Position numbers and translations under genes: made by a program. A stretch of DNA of 10,471 nt from an uncultured Flammeovirgaceae bacterium (GTDB lineage Bacteria; Bacteroidota; Bacteroidia; Cytophagales; Cyclobacteriaceae): the NCBI GenBank assembly GCA_946886805.1, contig CAMPJM010000102.1, positions 1-10,471 on the forward strand, read 5' to 3'. Below, piece after piece: positions 2,805 through 10,471 of the stretch; within the stretch, counting starts at the first letter, position 1, and each line of letters opens with the position of its first letter. The notes under the pieces are model-generated. The model was given only the letters and a program-made list of their open reading frames with translations, searched no databases and was not told the origin of the DNA.

Positions 2805-3443
2805 ATGAATTATAGCCTTCCTTTTATTACTGATCCCCATCTCCTACGGGCCATTGAGAAAGAAGCAAAAACAATGGAGTTTGAAGTAGGTCAGACTATT
2901 ATTGATAAGGGACAGTATATCAAAATTGTTCCTATCATTCTCCAGGGTTCGGTAAAAGTATTGAGGACTGACGAGGCCGGTCACGAACTTTTTTTGTACT
3001 ATATTGAAGCTGGTGAGACCTGTGCGGTGTCATTGACCTGTTGCAACACTTCAACTCCCAGCGAAATCAAAGCTGTAGCGGAAGAAAAAACGGTTATATT
3101 AGGAGTTCCTGTAAGGAAGCATGAGGAATGGACCAATGATTTCAGGCAATGGAAGGACTTCGTTGCCCTTACTTTCCAAAAACGATTTCAAGAGCTGCTT
3201 TTAACGATTGATGCCATTGCATTTCAAAAAATGGATGAACGCCTATTGGGCTATCTGGTTACCAAATCCGGACAGCTAAAATCCCTTGAGCTCGCCATCA
3301 CGCACCAGGAAATAGCCATTGAACTGGGATCGTCCCGAGAAGTAATTTCCCGCCTGCTAAAGCAGCTGGAGAAGAAAAAACTCGTCGAATTGGGCAGAAA
3401 TATCATTTATGTACGGGACGGATTGGAGGACTATATGAAATAA
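2805..3443 (+). CDS. Crp/Fnr-family transcriptional regulator with a C-x5-CC effector-domain cluster
   Basis: A 212-residue protein with the two-domain Crp/Fnr plan. The N-terminal cyclic-nucleotide-binding-like beta-roll spans about 5-115 (QTIIDKGQ, IILQGSVKVLRTDEAGHELFL). A dimer helix spans about 115-145 and a winged helix-turn-helix about 146-205. The recognition helix SSREVISRLLKQLE (176-189) places R178, E179 and R183 where CRP has R180, E181 and R185, which read TGTGA half-sites. The cAMP-binding phosphate loop is not conserved: the corresponding stretch is GETCAVSLTCCN, which holds the protein's only cysteines (C73, C79, C80). The four-cysteine Fnr iron-sulfur arrangement is absent. 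CRP-like inverted repeats precede the next two genes, a sulfur-oxyanion exporter and a persulfide dioxygenase. I infer that it controls them and may sense reactive sulfur through these cysteines. The family call is firm; the ligand is inference. Confidence 0.9.
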   Translation: MNYSLPFITDPHLLRAIEKEAKTMEFEVGQTIIDKGQYIKIVPIILQGSVKVLRTDEAGHELFLYYIEAGETCAVSLTCCNTSTPSEIKAVAEEKTVILGVPVRKHEEWTNDFRQWKDFVALTFQKRFQELLLTIDAIAFQKMDERLLGYLVTKSGQLKSLELAITHQEIAIELGSSREVISRLLKQLEKKKLVELGRNIIYVRDGLEDYMK

Positions 3444-3722: not shown

Positions 3723-3738
3723 TGTAACAAACGTCACT
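3723..3738 (+). promoter_or_regulatory. CRP-like operator before the exporter gene
   Basis: TGTAACaaacGTCACT. Read against the CRP consensus TGTGA-N6-TCACA it is TGTAA-N6-TCACT, two mismatches in ten informative bases. Its right edge is 21 bp upstream of the TAGCTTTG -7 element, which puts the centre about 41-42 bp before the likely transcription start, the classical class II activator position. The right half covers the place where the -33 TTG would be, and no good TTG is there, as expected for an activator-dependent promoter. The same arrangement recurs at 4595-4610. Confidence 0.7.
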
Positions 3739-3759
3739 AAAAATAGCTTAACGCTATGG

Positions 3760-3767
3760 TAGCTTTG
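3760..3767 (+). promoter_or_regulatory. Bacteroidota -7 element (TAGCTTTG) of the exporter gene
   Basis: A perfect match to TAnnTTTG. Transcription would start around 3772-3777, leaving a leader of only about 8-13 bases before the ATG at 3785. That is near-leaderless, and no Shine-Dalgarno sequence is present. Confidence 0.7.
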
Positions 3768-3784
3768 CCTCATAATCTTGAATT

Positions 3785-4591
3785 ATGGAAGTAATAACAA
3801 TAATAGGATTTTTGTCAGCAATCATCATTGGAATAAGTCTCGGGCTGATTGGTGGTGGGGGTTCCATTCTTACAGTTCCGGCGCTGGTATATTTGCTGCA
3901 TGTAAGTCCGGTGCTGGCCACAGCCTATTCCCTATTTGTGGTAGGAGCTACTTCGCTTGCCGGCTCAGTCTCCTTTATGCGCAAGGGATTGGTGGATTAT
4001 AAAACAGCCTTCGTTTTTGCCACTCCTTCTTTCATTGCGGTTTTCTTGACCAGAAAATTTCTTATACCGGCCATCCCTGAAATGCTTTTCAACATAGGCG
4101 ATCTCACTATTAGTAAGAATGTTGGAATAATGGTTTTCTTTGCGCTGATCATGGTGGTAGCTGCTATTTCAATGATCAAAAAAAATGGTTTTGATACCAA
4201 CAATAAAGAGGAAAAAGTTAAATTCAATTATCCAATGATCGCACTGGAGGGAGCAGTGGTAGGCACCCTCACAGGAATTGTTGGTGCCGGTGGTGGCTTT
4301 TTGATCATTCCGGCTTTGGTGCTTTTTGCGAAATTACCCATGAAACTGGCAGTGGGAACTTCGCTGTTGATTATTGCTGCGAAATCGCTGATAGGCTTTT
4401 TGGGTGATATTGGTAACCAACCCATAGATTGGTCATTCATGCTCTTGTTCACTTCGCTTTCCCTGGGGGGTATTTTTGTAGGAAGCTGGCTTTCTACAAA
4501 AATAGACGGGAAACATCTTGAAAAGGGATTCGGCTGGTTTGTGCTGGTAATGGGAATCTATATCTTATTCACTGAGCTTATATTGCAATAG
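3785..4591 (+). CDS. TauE/SafE (TSUP) family sulfur-oxyanion exporter
   Basis: A 268-residue inner-membrane protein with about eight hydrophobic segments and the internal two-fold repeat typical of TSUP transporters. The glycine-rich motif appears once in each half: GLIGGGGSILTVPALV (20-35) and GIVGAGGGFLIIPALVL (164-180). A charged loop (about 132-148, IKKNGFDTNNKEEKVKF) separates the halves. Length is normal for the family and there are no cysteines. Family members export sulfite, sulfoacetate or related anions, and some import thiosulfate. Lying between a Crp/Fnr regulator and a persulfide dioxygenase-rhodanese, sulfite or thiosulfate export is the likeliest job. The ATG at 3785 directly follows the promoter. 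The exact substrate and direction are inferred. Confidence 0.9.
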   Translation: MEVITIIGFLSAIIIGISLGLIGGGGSILTVPALVYLLHVSPVLATAYSLFVVGATSLAGSVSFMRKGLVDYKTAFVFATPSFIAVFLTRKFLIPAIPEMLFNIGDLTISKNVGIMVFFALIMVVAAISMIKKNGFDTNNKEEKVKFNYPMIALEGAVVGTLTGIVGAGGGFLIIPALVLFAKLPMKLAVGTSLLIIAAKSLIGFLGDIGNQPIDWSFMLLFTSLSLGGIFVGSWLSTKIDGKHLEKGFGWFVLVMGIYILFTELILQ

Positions 4592-4594
4592 ACA

Positions 4595-4610
4595 TGTGAC
4601 AAGAGTTACA
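4595..4610 (+). promoter_or_regulatory. CRP-like operator before the persulfide dioxygenase gene
   Basis: TGTGACaagaGTTACA, an inverted repeat with 5 of 6 arm positions symmetric. Against the CRP consensus it reads TGTGA-N6-TTACA, one mismatch in ten. Its right edge is 21 bp upstream of the TATTTTTG -7 element, exactly as at the exporter promoter (3723-3738), so the centre is again near -41.5. It begins only 4 bp after the exporter stop codon. Confidence 0.75.
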
Positions 4611-4631
4611 GACATTCGAAAAAACATTCTC

Positions 4632-4639
4632 TATTTTTG
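4632..4639 (+). promoter_or_regulatory. Bacteroidota -7 element (TATTTTTG) of the dioxygenase gene
   Basis: A perfect match to TAnnTTTG with no TTG at -33, where the CRP-like site lies instead. The leader to the ATG at 4692 would be about 45 bases, AT-rich and without a Shine-Dalgarno sequence. The gene therefore has its own promoter in addition to possible read-through from the exporter gene. Confidence 0.7.
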
Positions 4640-4691: not shown

Positions 4692-6032
4692 ATGAAAATA
4701 AAACAATTTGAAGATAAGGGCCTGGCGCATTTTTCCTATGCCATATTGACTGAAGAAAAGCATGAAATCATCCTGGTGGATCCTGCGCGGAATCCGCAGC
4801 CTTATTATGATTATGCAGAAGCCCATCAGGCAAAAATTGTCGGGGTGATCGAAACACATCCACATGCTGATTTTGTGAGCTCTCATTTGGAAATTCATAA
4901 AACCACCGGAGCAAATGTTTATATCAGCGAAATGGTGGGAGCAGATTATCCTCACATTCCGTTTGATGAAGGGGATATCATTGAGCTGGGTGAGTTAAAA
5001 CTGAAAGCTTTACATACCCCTGGTCATTCTCCTGACGGCATTAGTATAGTTTTGGAAGAAAAAGGAAAAGATAAAGCTATTTTTACTGGAGACACCTTGT
5101 TCATCGGCGATGTAGGCAGACCTGACCTGCGAGAGAACTCTGGAAAAATGATGGCTAAAAGGGAGGAGCTTGCCAAACAAATGTTCCACAGTACCAGAGA
5201 GAAGTTGATGAAGCTCGACGATGATGTGATTGTTTATCCTGCGCATGGCTCCGGTTCTCTTTGCGGAAAATCGATGAGTGATGCTAAAACCAGCTCTATA
5301 GGCGCAGAAAAGGTGGGCAATTATGCGTTACAACCCATGTCAGAAGAGGAGTTTGTAACACTTTTGCTTCAAGATCAACCCTTTATTCCGAAGTACTTTC
5401 CCTATGATGTAGGGCTAAATAAAAAAGGAGCTCCTGATTACACAGCCTCCCTCGGAGCAGTAAAGATGCTGGAAAAAAATTTTAAACCTGAGCCAACCCA
5501 AATTATTGTAGACGGAAGGCCTCAAAAAGCTTTTAAAGAAAGCCATATTAAAGGTGCATTTAATATCCAGAACGGGGAGAAATTTGAAACCTGGCTGGGA
5601 AGTATAGTGGGGCCAGATGAGCAAATTTATTTAGTGGCGGCTTCGGAAGGAGATTTGAATGAACTGATAAAAAAAGCTGCAAAAATCGGCTACGAACTGA
5701 ATATTGCAGGTGCTTTTGTATATGGCAAAACAGAAGACACCAGAAGTGCAGACTTTGACAAAACCACTTTCGAGACCGATCAGGATAAATATACCATAGT
5801 CGATATCCGGAATGCCAGTGAAACAAAAGCAGGCAGTTTCTTTGACGGTGCCATCACTATTCCCCTACCGGAATTAAGAGGAAGAGCAAACGAGATCCCC
5901 ACCGATAAACCCGTCGTAGTGCATTGCGCCGGAGGCTATCGTTCTGCCGCAGGAAGCAGTATTCTGGAAGCCAATCTTCCGGTGCAGGTGCTGGATATGA
6001 GTGAGGCAGTGACTGAACTGAAAAATCAGTAA
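4692..6032 (+). CDS. persulfide dioxygenase-rhodanese fusion (CstB-like)
   Basis: A 446-residue cytoplasmic protein with three domains. The metallo-beta-lactamase-fold persulfide dioxygenase spans about 1-235: THPHADFVSSH supplies H56 and H58, TPGHSPDG supplies H112, GDTLFIGDVGRPDL supplies D134, and H185 lies in PAHGSGSLCG. H56, H112 and D134 would hold a single Fe(II); phenylalanine replaces the second histidine of the HxHxDH motif of two-metal enzymes. A first rhodanese domain (about 260-345) keeps the DGRPQKAF...HIKGAFNI scaffold but has VAASEGD where the catalytic cysteine belongs, so it is a pseudo-domain. The second rhodanese (about 360-446) has the active loop HCAGGYRSA with C412. The only cysteines are C191 and C412. 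As I recall, S. aureus CstB has the same order, nearly the same length and key cysteines C201 and C408. Expected chemistry: persulfide to sulfite, then thiosulfate by sulfur transfer. Confidence 0.92.
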   Translation: MKIKQFEDKGLAHFSYAILTEEKHEIILVDPARNPQPYYDYAEAHQAKIVGVIETHPHADFVSSHLEIHKTTGANVYISEMVGADYPHIPFDEGDIIELGELKLKALHTPGHSPDGISIVLEEKGKDKAIFTGDTLFIGDVGRPDLRENSGKMMAKREELAKQMFHSTREKLMKLDDDVIVYPAHGSGSLCGKSMSDAKTSSIGAEKVGNYALQPMSEEEFVTLLLQDQPFIPKYFPYDVGLNKKGAPDYTASLGAVKMLEKNFKPEPTQIIVDGRPQKAFKESHIKGAFNIQNGEKFETWLGSIVGPDEQIYLVAASEGDLNELIKKAAKIGYELNIAGAFVYGKTEDTRSADFDKTTFETDQDKYTIVDIRNASETKAGSFFDGAITIPLPELRGRANEIPTDKPVVVHCAGGYRSAAGSSILEANLPVQVLDMSEAVTELKNQ

Positions 6033-6265: not shown

Positions 6266-6658
6266 GTGCATAGATTATTAATCCTTTTTATATCCTTACT
6301 GATGCTTTTTTCATCGACTTGTACGATGAAGGCTATGCTATGGGAGCAACTGGGGATTGAAGTTCCCGCACCTACCAAACCTTATTCTTCAAAAGGAATT
6401 TCTTTCCAAAGTCATGCTGCTGCTTCCGTTGCGGAATTATGTTCCTCGAATATGAGTAGCTTCTTTGATGAAGCAGAAATACTTCCAGGCAGTTCGTTGA
6501 AAGCACCTTTAGTACTGCTCTCGGTACTTTTTATACTCTCTTTAACTCTGCCCGAATTATTACAAACAAAGAGCAATTCAAATTTTTCTTTTCATTCTTC
6601 CGAATCCGGAACGGTTCCGATCTACCTCAGACTGGGACAACTTATTTATTACTCCTAA
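6266..6658 (+). CDS. small membrane protein of unknown function upstream of an RND operon
   Basis: A 130-residue protein. The start is taken as GTG because a stop codon precedes it closely in frame (6260-6262) and because this start gives a complete hydrophobic leader, MHRLLILFISLLMLFSSTC. The next ATG (6302) would cut that leader in half. C19 at the end of the leader does not sit in a proper lipobox. A second hydrophobic segment lies at about 79-98 (KAPLVLLSVLFILSLTLPEL), and the tail is GTVPIYLRLGQLIYYS. The region between the two segments is polar with a few possible ligands (H50, C59). I do not recognise a domain. It precedes the TolC-RND genes and may be transcribed with them; an accessory envelope role is only a guess. 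Confidence 0.6.
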   Translation: MHRLLILFISLLMLFSSTCTMKAMLWEQLGIEVPAPTKPYSSKGISFQSHAAASVAELCSSNMSSFFDEAEILPGSSLKAPLVLLSVLFILSLTLPELLQTKSNSNFSFHSSESGTVPIYLRLGQLIYYS

Positions 6659-6882: not shown

Positions 6883-8265
6883 ATGAAATTCAGCTATCTT
6901 CTGACCTGCATGGTTTTTTTGCTCGTCAGTCTCAAGGGATTCGGACAGGATACCACTGGCCTTTCACTGCCCCGGCTTTGGGAGCAGGCCTTTGCAAATT
7001 ATCCCAGTTTAGAAGCTTACCGTTCGCAACAACGTCAGGCGAACATCAATCAAAAGCTTGCCAGAAACCAATATTTGCCCAACGTATTGCTGCAAGCGCA
7101 AAACACGCTGGGAACACAACATGGCATCAATGGCGCCTTTTTCCCTTTACCTGGCTTGTTCAATGTAAATGGTGCGGGTATCAATAGCGGTGCTGATTAT
7201 GCCGCGAACATGTTTGGGTCTGTGGTGATGGACTGGCAATTCATGCAGTTTGGCAGGCAAAAAAAATCAATGGAAGCCGCTGCGGTTTTATCCAACCAGG
7301 CTGCACATCGCCTGAATGCAGAGCAGGTCGCGGTGCAGGCGGCATTGAGCAGAGACTATTTTCAACTGCTTTACTATCAACGCATGCAACATTGGGCACA
7401 GGCAAATACTCAGCGTCTCCAAACCATTTTCCAGGCCTCGGCAGCCAACGCAAGAGCAGGTTTGTCGCCGGGAGCAGATTCGCTGCTTATAAAAGCAACG
7501 CTTGACCAAACCGGGGCCGACCTCCATAAATGGCAGGGCTTTGAGGAAGAGGCAAAAATTGCTTTGGCCCAGTGGGTAAATATACCTGCAAGCCATCTGA
7601 CTGTTCAAAATGAGTTGTTTCTAAATGAAGGTGAACCACATTTGATTCGGGAAACAGAGCAAGATTTGGCGACACACCCGCAGTTAGCTTTTAAAAAGGA
7701 GCAAATCGCCTATGCCGAAAAACAAAAGGAACTGGCCTTTTTGGGCGCCCTCCCTTCCCTATCCATATTGGGTGGGGTGCAACTTCGGGGGCATTCCATG
7801 AATAGAGAAAATTCCGTTTATGAAAACTGGGGCCAAAGCTATAACAATACGGCGGATAATTACCTGGTTGGCCTTGGCCTTACCTGGAACTTAGGCCAGG
7901 CTTTCGACTCCAGACTGGAAAAAAGCTTGTACCTGGAGGAGGCTCAGCAACGCCAGGCAGAAACAGAAGCACTTGCTTTGAACCTGCGCAGTCAAAAAGA
8001 GATGGCCCAACAGCAGATGGCCCAAAGCCGCCAGCAAATAGATAATACCGAACAGGCTTATGAAGCCGCCAGTCAGGCATATGGATTATTTGAGGCACGG
8101 TATAACAGCGGTCTGATCTCGATTACAGAACTGTTGCAAATCCAGGATATACTACAAAATACGGAAAGGACCCGGATTGAAGCCTACTATCAGTATTGGC
8201 TGCAACAGACTAACATGGCTGAATCAACAGCCGATTTTTCCTATCTGCAAAATGTATTTGAATAA
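6883..8265 (+). CDS. TolC-family outer membrane efflux protein
   Basis: A 460-residue protein with signal peptide MKFSYLLTCMVFLLVSLKGFGQ (cleavage after GQ). It has the two-fold OEP architecture: LWEQAFANYPSLEAYRSQQ (about 33-51) opens the first repeat, and THPQLAFKKEQIAYAEKQKE (about 264-283) opens the second. Each is followed by a beta-strand segment and long glutamine- and alanine-rich coiled-coil helices. The closing motif AYGLFEARYNSGLISITELL (about 399-418) is typical of the last helix pair of TolC proteins. Length is normal. It forms the trimeric outer-membrane channel of a tripartite pump. The permease gene starts 8 bp after its stop codon, so the two are certainly co-transcribed. Confidence 0.93.
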   Translation: MKFSYLLTCMVFLLVSLKGFGQDTTGLSLPRLWEQAFANYPSLEAYRSQQRQANINQKLARNQYLPNVLLQAQNTLGTQHGINGAFFPLPGLFNVNGAGINSGADYAANMFGSVVMDWQFMQFGRQKKSMEAAAVLSNQAAHRLNAEQVAVQAALSRDYFQLLYYQRMQHWAQANTQRLQTIFQASAANARAGLSPGADSLLIKATLDQTGADLHKWQGFEEEAKIALAQWVNIPASHLTVQNELFLNEGEPHLIRETEQDLATHPQLAFKKEQIAYAEKQKELAFLGALPSLSILGGVQLRGHSMNRENSVYENWGQSYNNTADNYLVGLGLTWNLGQAFDSRLEKSLYLEEAQQRQAETEALALNLRSQKEMAQQQMAQSRQQIDNTEQAYEAASQAYGLFEARYNSGLISITELLQIQDILQNTERTRIEAYYQYWLQQTNMAESTADFSYLQNVFE

Positions 8266-8273
8266 AAAATATT

Positions 8274-10471
8274 ATGAACATCATTCGATTAGCCCTGCGA
8301 AAACCAATAGCAATTATTGTGGCAGTAATAGCCATAGCTTATTTCGCAGTCATTTCTATCAATAACATCAAGGTCGATATTTTTCCAGAAGTGGAGTCGC
8401 CCTCAATTTATATTGCCATGCCTTACGGGGGTCTGTCTCCTGAATATATGGACGGCTTTATGGCCAGCAATTTTCAGAAAGTACTGATTTTTGTGAGCGG
8501 GGTAAAAGACATGGAATTTAAAAGTGTACAGGGGCTCACCCTCATGCAACTGTCTTTCTATCCGGGCACCGATATGGCGCAGGCTTCCGCAGAAGTAGCC
8601 ATGATGGTTTCGCGTGCCATGGCATTCCTGCCTCCTGGTGCTGTTACACCACAGGTAGTACGCTTCGATGCCAGTGCATTGCCTGTCGGCCAACTGGTAT
8701 TTGAAAGCTCCACCCGCTCTATTGGTGAGCTGCAAAACCTCGCGGTGACCAGAATCCGGCCGATGTTCGTCAATATTCCGGGCATCACGGCACCGGCGCC
8801 TTTTGGAGGAAACGTTCGAACCATTGTTACCAATGTAAATCCTGAGCTCATGCAGTCCTACGGGCTTTCAGCAGAAGAGGTCACCATAGCAATTGCCAGA
8901 AATAACCTCCCCTCGCCTGCCGGAAACGTGCAAATTGGTGATCAGAATTTCATGAGCCCTGTCAATTCTTTGGTAAAAGGCCCGGAAGAGTTGCTAAACA
9001 CGCCAATCCGGGAAGGGAGCGGGCATACGGTTTTTATCAGGGACATCGCTACGGTAACAGACGGAACAGACAAAACCACTGCCTATGCCCTGGTAAATGG
9101 CAAAAGAACTGTCTATCTCCCCATTATTAAAAAGTCTGATGCTTCCACGCTGGATGCCGTTGATAATTTAAAAAATGCGTTGCCGATGCTGGAAGCGGCT
9201 TTACCGGAAGACGTATCCATTGATTATGTTTTTGACCAGTCGGGATATATTTCACAATCATTGTCCAATTTGATTCACGAAGGAATATTAGGCGCTATTC
9301 TTACAGGTTTAATGGTACTGTTGTTTCTTGGCGACAAACGCGGTGCTTTGATCGTGGTGCTGACAATTCCAATTGCCATCTTATCTGCCGTTACCCTGCT
9401 TTATTTGTTTGGACAAACCATAAATGTAATGACCCTGAGTGGCCTTGCATTGGCCATTGGGGTACTGGTGGATGAAGCGACGGTGACCATTGAAAACATA
9501 CACCAGCACTTTGAGGCCAGAAAACCCAAAGCAAGAGCCATTCTGGATGCGCTTCTTGAAATTTCACTGCCTAAATTGCTGATCCTGCTTTCTATTCTGG
9601 CGGTTTTAACACCTTCCCTCATGATGAGCGGCATCCCTAAAGATATGTTTATGCCGTTGTCCATGGCCGTAGGTTTTGCCATGATTGCCTCATTTTTGGC
9701 CTCTCAAACCTTTATTCCGGTAATGGCCAACTGGATTATGAAAAATAAACACATGGGAAAGGAAGTCAAAGGAAAACCAGTATATACCCGCTTTGATAAG
9801 TTCAGGATACGCTATCTGATGGTGGTGAGAAAATGGCAAAGGAAAATGTCTCTGATAACAATAGGCTATACTGTAGTCGTGATCGCTTTAATAGGCGTAG
9901 GCTTTTCGGTGATTGGCACGGACATTATGCCACCCAGCGGCACCAGAGATCTTCAGTTGAGAATTGCCTCACCTCAGGGAACAAGGCTTGAAAAATCAGA
10001 GGAAAACATGCTGGCCGTAGAAAAGTTGATCCGGGAGGAAGTGGGCCCGGGTGGAGTAAAGATTTCCTCCGCTTTTGTGGGGATGCATTCTCCCAATACC
10101 CCTATTAATCCAATTTTTCTTTTTACTTCAGGCTCGCATGAGGCCGTACTTCAGGTTTCTATCGACGGCGAAGTCTATGACGGTTCTATCGACGGTTTAA
10201 AGGAAACCATCCGGCAAAAAGTAGCAGCACAACTCCCCGACCTCGCCATTACTTTTGAACCCATGGAGATGGTTGAAAAAATCTTGAGCCAGGGTGCAAC
10301 AACACCTGTTTCGGTAAAAATATTAGGAAAAAACCTGCAGGAGGCCAACCAACATGCTAAAAAAATACAGAAGGAATTACAAAAAGTAGCTTCCTTCAGA
10401 GATGTGCATATTGCAGAACCCATTGACTACCCCAGTATACAGATAGAGGTGGATCGGGAGTTGGCGGCGCA
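8274..10471 (+). CDS. RND efflux permease (AcrB/CzcA superfamily), 3' end outside window
   Basis: The frame stays open from ATG 8274 to the window edge: 732 codons of an expected length slightly above 1,000. The N-terminus MNIIRLALRKPIAIIVAVIA begins TM1, followed by DIFPEVESPSIYIAMPYGG, a hallmark of the family. The first porter region follows, then TM2-TM4 (about 335-410) with GVLVDEATVTIENIH (397-411). Here D400 corresponds to the proton-relay D407 of AcrB, and E401 replaces D408. TM5-TM6 follow, then TM7 (about 525-548) ending GTDIMPPSGTRD, and the start of the second porter region. The motif lies between the HAE (VDDAIVVVEN) and CzcA/CusA types, so the substrate (metal, organic or other) cannot be fixed. 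No membrane-fusion adaptor is in the window; it probably follows. Confidence 0.92.
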   Translation, partial: MNIIRLALRKPIAIIVAVIAIAYFAVISINNIKVDIFPEVESPSIYIAMPYGGLSPEYMDGFMASNFQKVLIFVSGVKDMEFKSVQGLTLMQLSFYPGTDMAQASAEVAMMVSRAMAFLPPGAVTPQVVRFDASALPVGQLVFESSTRSIGELQNLAVTRIRPMFVNIPGITAPAPFGGNVRTIVTNVNPELMQSYGLSAEEVTIAIARNNLPSPAGNVQIGDQNFMSPVNSLVKGPEELLNTPIREGSGHTVFIRDIATVTDGTDKTTAYALVNGKRTVYLPIIKKSDASTLDAVDNLKNALPMLEAALPEDVSIDYVFDQSGYISQSLSNLIHEGILGAILTGLMVLLFLGDKRGALIVVLTIPIAILSAVTLLYLFGQTINVMTLSGLALAIGVLVDEATVTIENIHQHFEARKPKARAILDALLEISLPKLLILLSILAVLTPSLMMSGIPKDMFMPLSMAVGFAMIASFLASQTFIPVMANWIMKNKHMGKEVKGKPVYTRFDKFRIRYLMVVRKWQRKMSLITIGYTVVVIALIGVGFSVIGTDIMPPSGTRDLQLRIASPQGTRLEKSEENMLAVEKLIREEVGPGGVKISSAFVGMHSPNTPINPIFLFTSGSHEAVLQVSIDGEVYDGSIDGLKETIRQKVAAQLPDLAITFEPMEMVEKILSQGATTPVSVKILGKNLQEANQHAKKIQKELQKVASFRDVHIAEPIDYPSIQIEVDRELAA
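10157..10195 (+). repeat. 12-nt in-frame direct repeat inside the RND gene
   Basis: TTCTATCGACGG occurs at 10157-10168 and 10184-10195, a 27-nt period. It encodes SIDG twice, nine residues apart (SIDGEVYDGSIDG), in the second porter region. It may be a small tandem duplication or coincidental codon reuse. Confidence 0.6.

Follow-up and report, generated by a model that had tools for sequence, protein, structure and literature searches.

The window analysed here, a stretch of 10,471 nucleotides from an uncultured Flammeovirgaceae bacterium, raises the question of whether two similar inverted repeats, each in front of a gene with a putative link to sulfur compounds, are bound by the Crp/Fnr-type regulator encoded just upstream, and, if so, with what effect and in response to which signal. 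Very probably, both dyads are operators of this regulator, which would act as a class II activator of a TauE gene and of a metallo-beta-lactamase-rhodanese gene and would most likely respond to persulfide or polysulfide. The genes concerned are all encoded on the + strand. A TonB-type receptor gene (2-2401; ORF list and Pfam) precedes the regulator gene (2805..3443), whose product has 212 amino acids. Putative target 1 is a TauE/SafE family sulfite exporter-like gene (3785..4591, 268 amino acids; PF01925, 2.9e-43). Putative target 2 (4692..6032, 446 amino acids) encodes a metallo-beta-lactamase domain (PF00753) with two rhodanese stretches (PF00581) and resembles persulfide dioxygenase (ETHE1). 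This domain pair suggests the name persulfide dioxygenase (PDO); no NCBIfam model matched the product above its cut-off. Further downstream is a small ORF with a GTG start (6266-6658, 130 amino acids), for which Pfam and NCBIfam searches (E up to 0.001) gave no match. It is followed by two genes identified with Pfam: OEP/TolC at 6883-8265 and an RND pump gene that runs from 8274 to the window end.

Operator 1, TGTAACaaacGTCACT (3723..3738, + strand), reads TGTAAC-aaac-GTCACT and is kept before TauE homologues, and operator 2, TGTGACaagaGTTACA (4595..4610, + strand), reads TGTGAC-aaga-GTTACA. Each is followed, 21 bp later on the same strand, by a Bacteroidota -7 element of the form TAnnTTTG, namely TAGCTTTG (3760..3767) and TATTTTTG (4632..4639), and the positions and gaps given in a preliminary description of this DNA proved to be exact. 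That description also called both sites CRP-like inverted repeats. This applies at both positions, except that operator 1 is not a perfect dyad, having T instead of the last A. Each operator consists of one TGTAA-type and one TGTGA-type half-site. In the relevant part of a flavobacterial transcription-start map, TAnnTTTG is placed at -12 to -5 (PMC9723704); transferred to the window, this placement predicts starts at 3772 and 4644 and puts both dyad centres at -41.5, the class II position, which agrees with the centres near -41.5 proposed earlier. Neither promoter has a TTG at -33, again as described before. When the window was scanned with relaxed criteria, no third credible site emerged, the two other matches being intragenic with 2-3 dyad mismatches, and no element was found upstream of the regulator gene itself.

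Clear evidence for conservation of this arrangement comes from two sets of loci: 80 (L001-L080) fetched by regulator homology and 80 (L168-L247) selected by regulator score alone from a phylum-wide search, for which a broader regulator alignment was used that included some members first chosen for having sites. In these 160 loci, 245 readings of the dyad TGTnAY-N4-RTnAC were obtained in both directions, versus 59 in the reversed sequences. A dyad and TAnnTTTG were separated by 0 to 52 bp in 89 pairs, namely by 21 bp in 60, by 22 bp in 23 (together 83) and by some other distance in six. The reversed sequences contained two such pairs in total, with gaps of 32 and 35 bp, and 400 dinucleotide shuffles of the window produced no match to the dyad, a 21/22-bp gap and TAnnTTTG. 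Within L001-L080, the full element (gap 21 or 22) was present upstream of 36 of 40 TauE genes versus 7 of 1101 other ORFs; it preceded two of seven PDO homologues and 8 of 78 regulator genes. Because of the latter number, and because no element was found before the window regulator gene, general autoregulation was rejected. The preliminary description had suggested examining orthologous promoters for a dyad located 21 bp upstream of the -7 element, and for TauE it is found there, at 21 or 22 bp, in these 36 cases, many of which come from a single genus, Algoriphagus, and are hence non-independent.

The TauE sites assigned to named bacteria include those of Algoriphagus (the majority), Echinicola shivajiensis, Pontibacter and Rufibacter; the full element was not found before TauE in Echinicola pacifica (L067) and Fulvivirga (L079). 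In Rhodocytophaga, one TauE copy is preceded by the element (L081), and another (L011) has a dyad in common with a divergent gene and no -7 element in its own direction at 21/22 bp. The search pattern partly sets the letters of the dyad and of the -7 element and leaves those of the spacer free. Among 109 distinct gap-21 elements, the information content is 0.36 and 0.52 bit in the first two spacer columns and at most 0.17 bit in each of the 19 others, and in 24 distinct gap-22 elements letters are still common at the spacer start. A TTG directly after the dyad, at the place of a -33 element, was seen in 14 of the 109 and 5 of the 24 elements. At the level of sequence comparison, these data show that the operators, their geometry and the evolutionary constraint on them are real and conserved in many relatives.

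The regulator has the features of the Crp/Fnr superfamily: matches above cut-off to cNMP_binding, HTH_Crp_2 and Crp (PF00027, PF13545 and PF00325) and an AlphaFold2 model (mean pLDDT 86) with a Crp fold, for which the first two PDB matches in Foldseek were 4ev0_A (TM 0.70) and 4ev0_D (TM 0.76). Its recognition helix is S-S-R178-E179-V-I-S-R183. The alignment places R178, E179 and R183 at R180, E181 and R185 of CRP, which bears out the CRP-type helix claimed earlier and is matched by the TGTGA-type half-sites of the operators. The only cysteines, C73, C79 and C80, lie around the position of the cAMP pocket in CRP, in a loop that we take to be the equivalent of the cAMP phosphate loop; residues 76-78 of this loop form the sole segment of at least three residues with a pLDDT below 50. 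Sensing of the cAMP type was rejected: in the alignment with E. coli CRP, the cassette sequence is C-A-V-S-L-T-C-C, a cysteine-bearing loop instead of one with the cAMP-pocket residues E72 and R82, and the score with the NCBIfam CRP model was 52.7 versus a cut-off of 266. FNR, a member of the same superfamily with the same activator geometry, carries an N-terminal cysteine cluster for its 4Fe-4S centre. The window regulator, unlike FNR and FNR-like oxygen sensors, has no such cluster, and FNR-type sensing was also rejected, the NCBIfam Fnr score being 21.7 versus a cut-off of 228.

C73 was found in all 203 family ORFs, which were picked with a profile including the C73 column, and in none of 17 other Crp/Fnr proteins from eight genomes. 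C79 and C80 are constant in the nearer relatives of the window regulator only and vary in the wider family, so that both were rejected as universal sensors, leaving C73 as the one constant cysteine. The best PDB sequence match to the regulator is 3dv8, a Crp/Fnr protein of Eubacterium rectale annotated as a putative transcriptional regulator; this species belongs to a phylum other than Bacteroidota. Despite an identity of only 24%, C73 and C79 both have a cysteine counterpart in 3dv8, equally spaced, and this type of cysteine pocket may thus reach beyond Bacteroidota.

Two lines of evidence link the regulator to the operators. The first is co-occurrence. In a sample of the order (regulator threshold E up to 1e-30), the site was present in 85 of 121 genomes with a regulator homologue and in 5 of 120 without; in a sample of the phylum (E up to 1e-42), which has 15 genomes in common with the former, the respective figures were 69 of 152 and 8 of 243. 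The reversed-pattern control was found in 25 of 121 and 7 of 120 genomes of the order sample and in 13 of 152 and 8 of 243 of the phylum sample; it is commoner in regulator-positive genomes, and genome size and composition therefore account for part of the co-occurrence. The exact site was not found in 36 of the 121 and 83 of the 152 regulator-positive genomes.

The second line is covariation between recognition helix and operator. The 203 family ORFs, which stem from the fetched loci and represent a few genomes twice, comprise 147 with Glu at residue 179, 55 with Val and one with Ala. For 84 regulators with a site within 1 kb, at least one half of the nearest site is of the TGTGA type for 61 of 65 Glu179 members, and no half has the G for 17 of 19 Val179 members, leaving six of the 84 that break the rule; part of this set (L128-L167) was chosen partly for having sites, with a pattern that leaves the G base free. 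When all sites within 1 kb are considered, the halves contain 96 G and 50 A for Glu members and 29 A, 8 T, 2 G and 1 C for Val members. The association persists after clustering at 90, 70, 60 and 50% identity; at 50%, there are 11 clusters, three of them with both residues, and by majority class the eight Glu groups are all G and the six Val groups all without G. The covariation was also tested on a tree with long branches, calculated by a quick method from the 71 of 84 rows left after removal of near-duplicates, with the helix columns excluded. Five changes of residue 179 occur on it, and independent pairs (three on supported branches, five on all), too few for a significant sign test, never oppose the rule. 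In CAP, replacement of Glu181 by Val alters specificity at the G4:C4 pair of TGTGA. The covariation of Glu179 with G is the expected contact, given that CRP Glu181 is described as contacting the C of this same pair (PMC11253593). The locus L226 (10901 bp) is well suited for testing the recognition code: of its two paralogues, which lie about 3.5 kb from each other, the Val-type one adjoins TGTTAC/TGTAAC operators and the Glu-type one a TGTGAC-N4-GTCACT operator.

For the Crp-type helix matches of the eight genomes mentioned above, loci were obtained for 30 of 33, comprising 13 family members and the 17 other Crp/Fnr proteins. All 13 have C73 and 12 have Arg178, the exception (L262) having Trp, and at positions 178-179 none of the 17 combines Arg with a following Glu or Val. 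The near-match helix K-E-T-V-I-R is present in four of these 17, which makes it less certain that the site is readable by this family alone; several genomes also carry two or more family members. Co-occurrence and covariation together support, indirectly, the regulator at 2805-3443 as the binder of both dyads, in line with the action on both sites ascribed to it in the preliminary description.

The genes downstream of the element were determined in three sets. Twelve whole genomes, reached via named loci, contained 19 sites, in 10 genomes, and no reversed pattern. These sites precede six TauE, four PDO-like (the one in L086 identified via the same gene in L066), one YeeE-like, one rhodanese, one thioredoxin-like, two fatty-acid-hydroxylase-like, one cytochrome-c-like and one methyltransferase-like gene, one regulator gene of the family itself and one unknown gene, names without a BLAST match to window proteins being judged from the sequence by eye; TauE, PDO-like, YeeE-like or rhodanese genes thus make up 12 of the 19. 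Among 28 more loci (L100-L127), 27 have a central site, intergenic in 26. Assigned by Pfam (10 proteins) or close resemblance, the genes behind are 10 TauE, three rhodanese, three YeeE (Sulf_transp), two FA_hydroxylase, two OEP and one each of PDO-like, Cons_hypoth698, OprD, OsmC and LPG_synthase_TM, the last with an intra-ORF site, and two further genes have no clear assignment. In the phylum sample, one site each from 20 of the 77 site-bearing genomes was followed up, giving four PDO-like genes (one, in L292, judged by resemblance), two TauE, three OEP, one rhodanese, one YgaP-like TM protein, one flavoprotein resembling sulfide:quinone reductase by eye, three intra-ORF sites ahead of DsbD, and, as the remaining five, a carbonic anhydrase, DUF6132, a LytTR regulator, a matchless protein and an intra-ORF site with no gene behind. 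Sulfur genes are the largest downstream group in every set and not the sole one. The earlier term "local" regulon is too narrow, the element being found elsewhere in the genomes and throughout the phylum sample.

In the mechanism that we favour, a regulator dimer would sit at -41.5 in place of the -33 contact and recruit RNA polymerase to an otherwise bare TAnnTTTG promoter, switching on the TauE and metallo-beta-lactamase-rhodanese enzyme genes; persulfide or polysulfide would most likely be sensed by reacting with C73, together with C79/C80, in what is left of the cAMP pocket. The contrary view that the pattern is a chance resemblance or a residual similarity of related promoters has a negligible probability. 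The close relationship of many footprint genomes speaks for residual similarity, but the dyad, the gap and the -7 element are kept around a spacer with little conservation, and the pattern recurs throughout the phylum sample. Chance was rejected by the gap histogram, the near-zero counts in reversed DNA and shuffles, and the difference between TauE and other ORFs, all of which confirm the earlier argument from equal spacing. We consider it improbable that the dyads, as real operators, are bound by some other Crp/Fnr protein of the genome, for which a second subfamily member would be the prime candidate. Several relatives have two or three members, an identical helix should read the same site, and near-match helices exist outside the family; however, the regulator gene directly adjoins both targets, and the L226 paralogues each keep their own operator type alongside.

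A limited though appreciable chance remains that the regulator binds the dyads and acts as a repressor, or that its signal is nitric oxide, redox state or haem instead of sulfur. Related Crp/Fnr proteins sense many signals, C73 is the one cysteine common to the whole family, and quite a few of the downstream genes have no obvious sulfur role. As to repression, a fixed distance over a mostly unconserved spacer together with the lack of a -33 element points to direct polymerase contact of the class II type, whereas a repressor needs neither; the rigid 21/22-bp spacing and the scarcity of TTG hence make activation the likelier effect. As to the signal, the element is repeatedly followed by TauE, PDO-like, rhodanese and YeeE genes, and a PDO-like enzyme and a sulfite exporter-like protein as putative targets in the window make reactive sulfur species the most likely candidate for our proposed activator.

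Compared with E. coli CRP at class II promoters, where the sites are centred at -41.5, the window system has the same type of fold, an R-E-x-x-x-R helix, a site of the TGTGA-N6-TCACA type and the same centre, but its putative targets include sulfur genes and its promoters have the Bacteroidota -7 element. SqrR, OxyR, LasR, OhrR and BigR belong to protein families other than Crp/Fnr. Along with CstR and FisR, the first four are treated as reactive-sulfur regulators in a review (PMC9774590), and BigR is a further one (PMC7315123). According to the sections concerned, several of these regulators control persulfide dioxygenase-type sulfur-oxidising or detoxifying genes through cysteine-based sensing, as would the window regulator, whereas CstR (CsoR family) and FisR (sigma54 activation) are of other families (PMC9774590). 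The text of this review contains "Crp" twice, in reference titles only, and "Fnr" not at all. In Acinetobacter, a Crp-like protein was found to be persulfidated, with an effect given as unknown in the section on it (PMC7315123).

Crp/Fnr regulators, class II promoters and the TAnnTTTG element are already known. None of the reactive-sulfur regulators named in the consulted parts of PMC9774590 and PMC7315123 is a Crp/Fnr protein acting on CRP-type operators, and the open-access literature searched gave no description of a Crp/Fnr sulfur regulator in Bacteroidota, the wording "Crp Fnr" probably missing the slash spelling. The family is present in 152 of 395 sampled Bacteroidota genomes. For a wider proposal, the arguments on either side seem to us evenly balanced: a Bacteroidota-wide CRP-like subfamily may have given up the cAMP site, with one essential cysteine in its stead, and may serve as the reactive-sulfur activator of the phylum, controlling PDO, sulfite/thiosulfate transport, rhodanese and efflux pump genes from rigid -41.5 operators, with a repeated Glu/Val operator switch at the CRP E181 position and paralogues with separate regulons in one cell. 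If true, the rigid operator code would make sulfur sensing in Bacteroidota directly testable, would supply a usable motif for regulon prediction and would repeat in nature the specificity change associated with E181 of CRP.

Some further genes associated with the element deserve mention. Fatty-acid-hydroxylase-like genes, which have no obvious sulfur role, are located behind it in L085, L088, L120 and L123 (assigned by Pfam in L120 only). The sites ahead of DsbD (L287, L290 and L293) are intra-ORF elements with a 22-bp gap, about 260 bp before the DsbD gene, and may be operators or coding coincidences. In the window, the OEP/TolC and RND pump genes (6883-10471) come after the PDO-like gene, with no element before them. 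OEP genes are found directly behind the element in L124, L125, L281, L294 and L295, and by this analogy the efflux pump of the window may also form part of the regulon.
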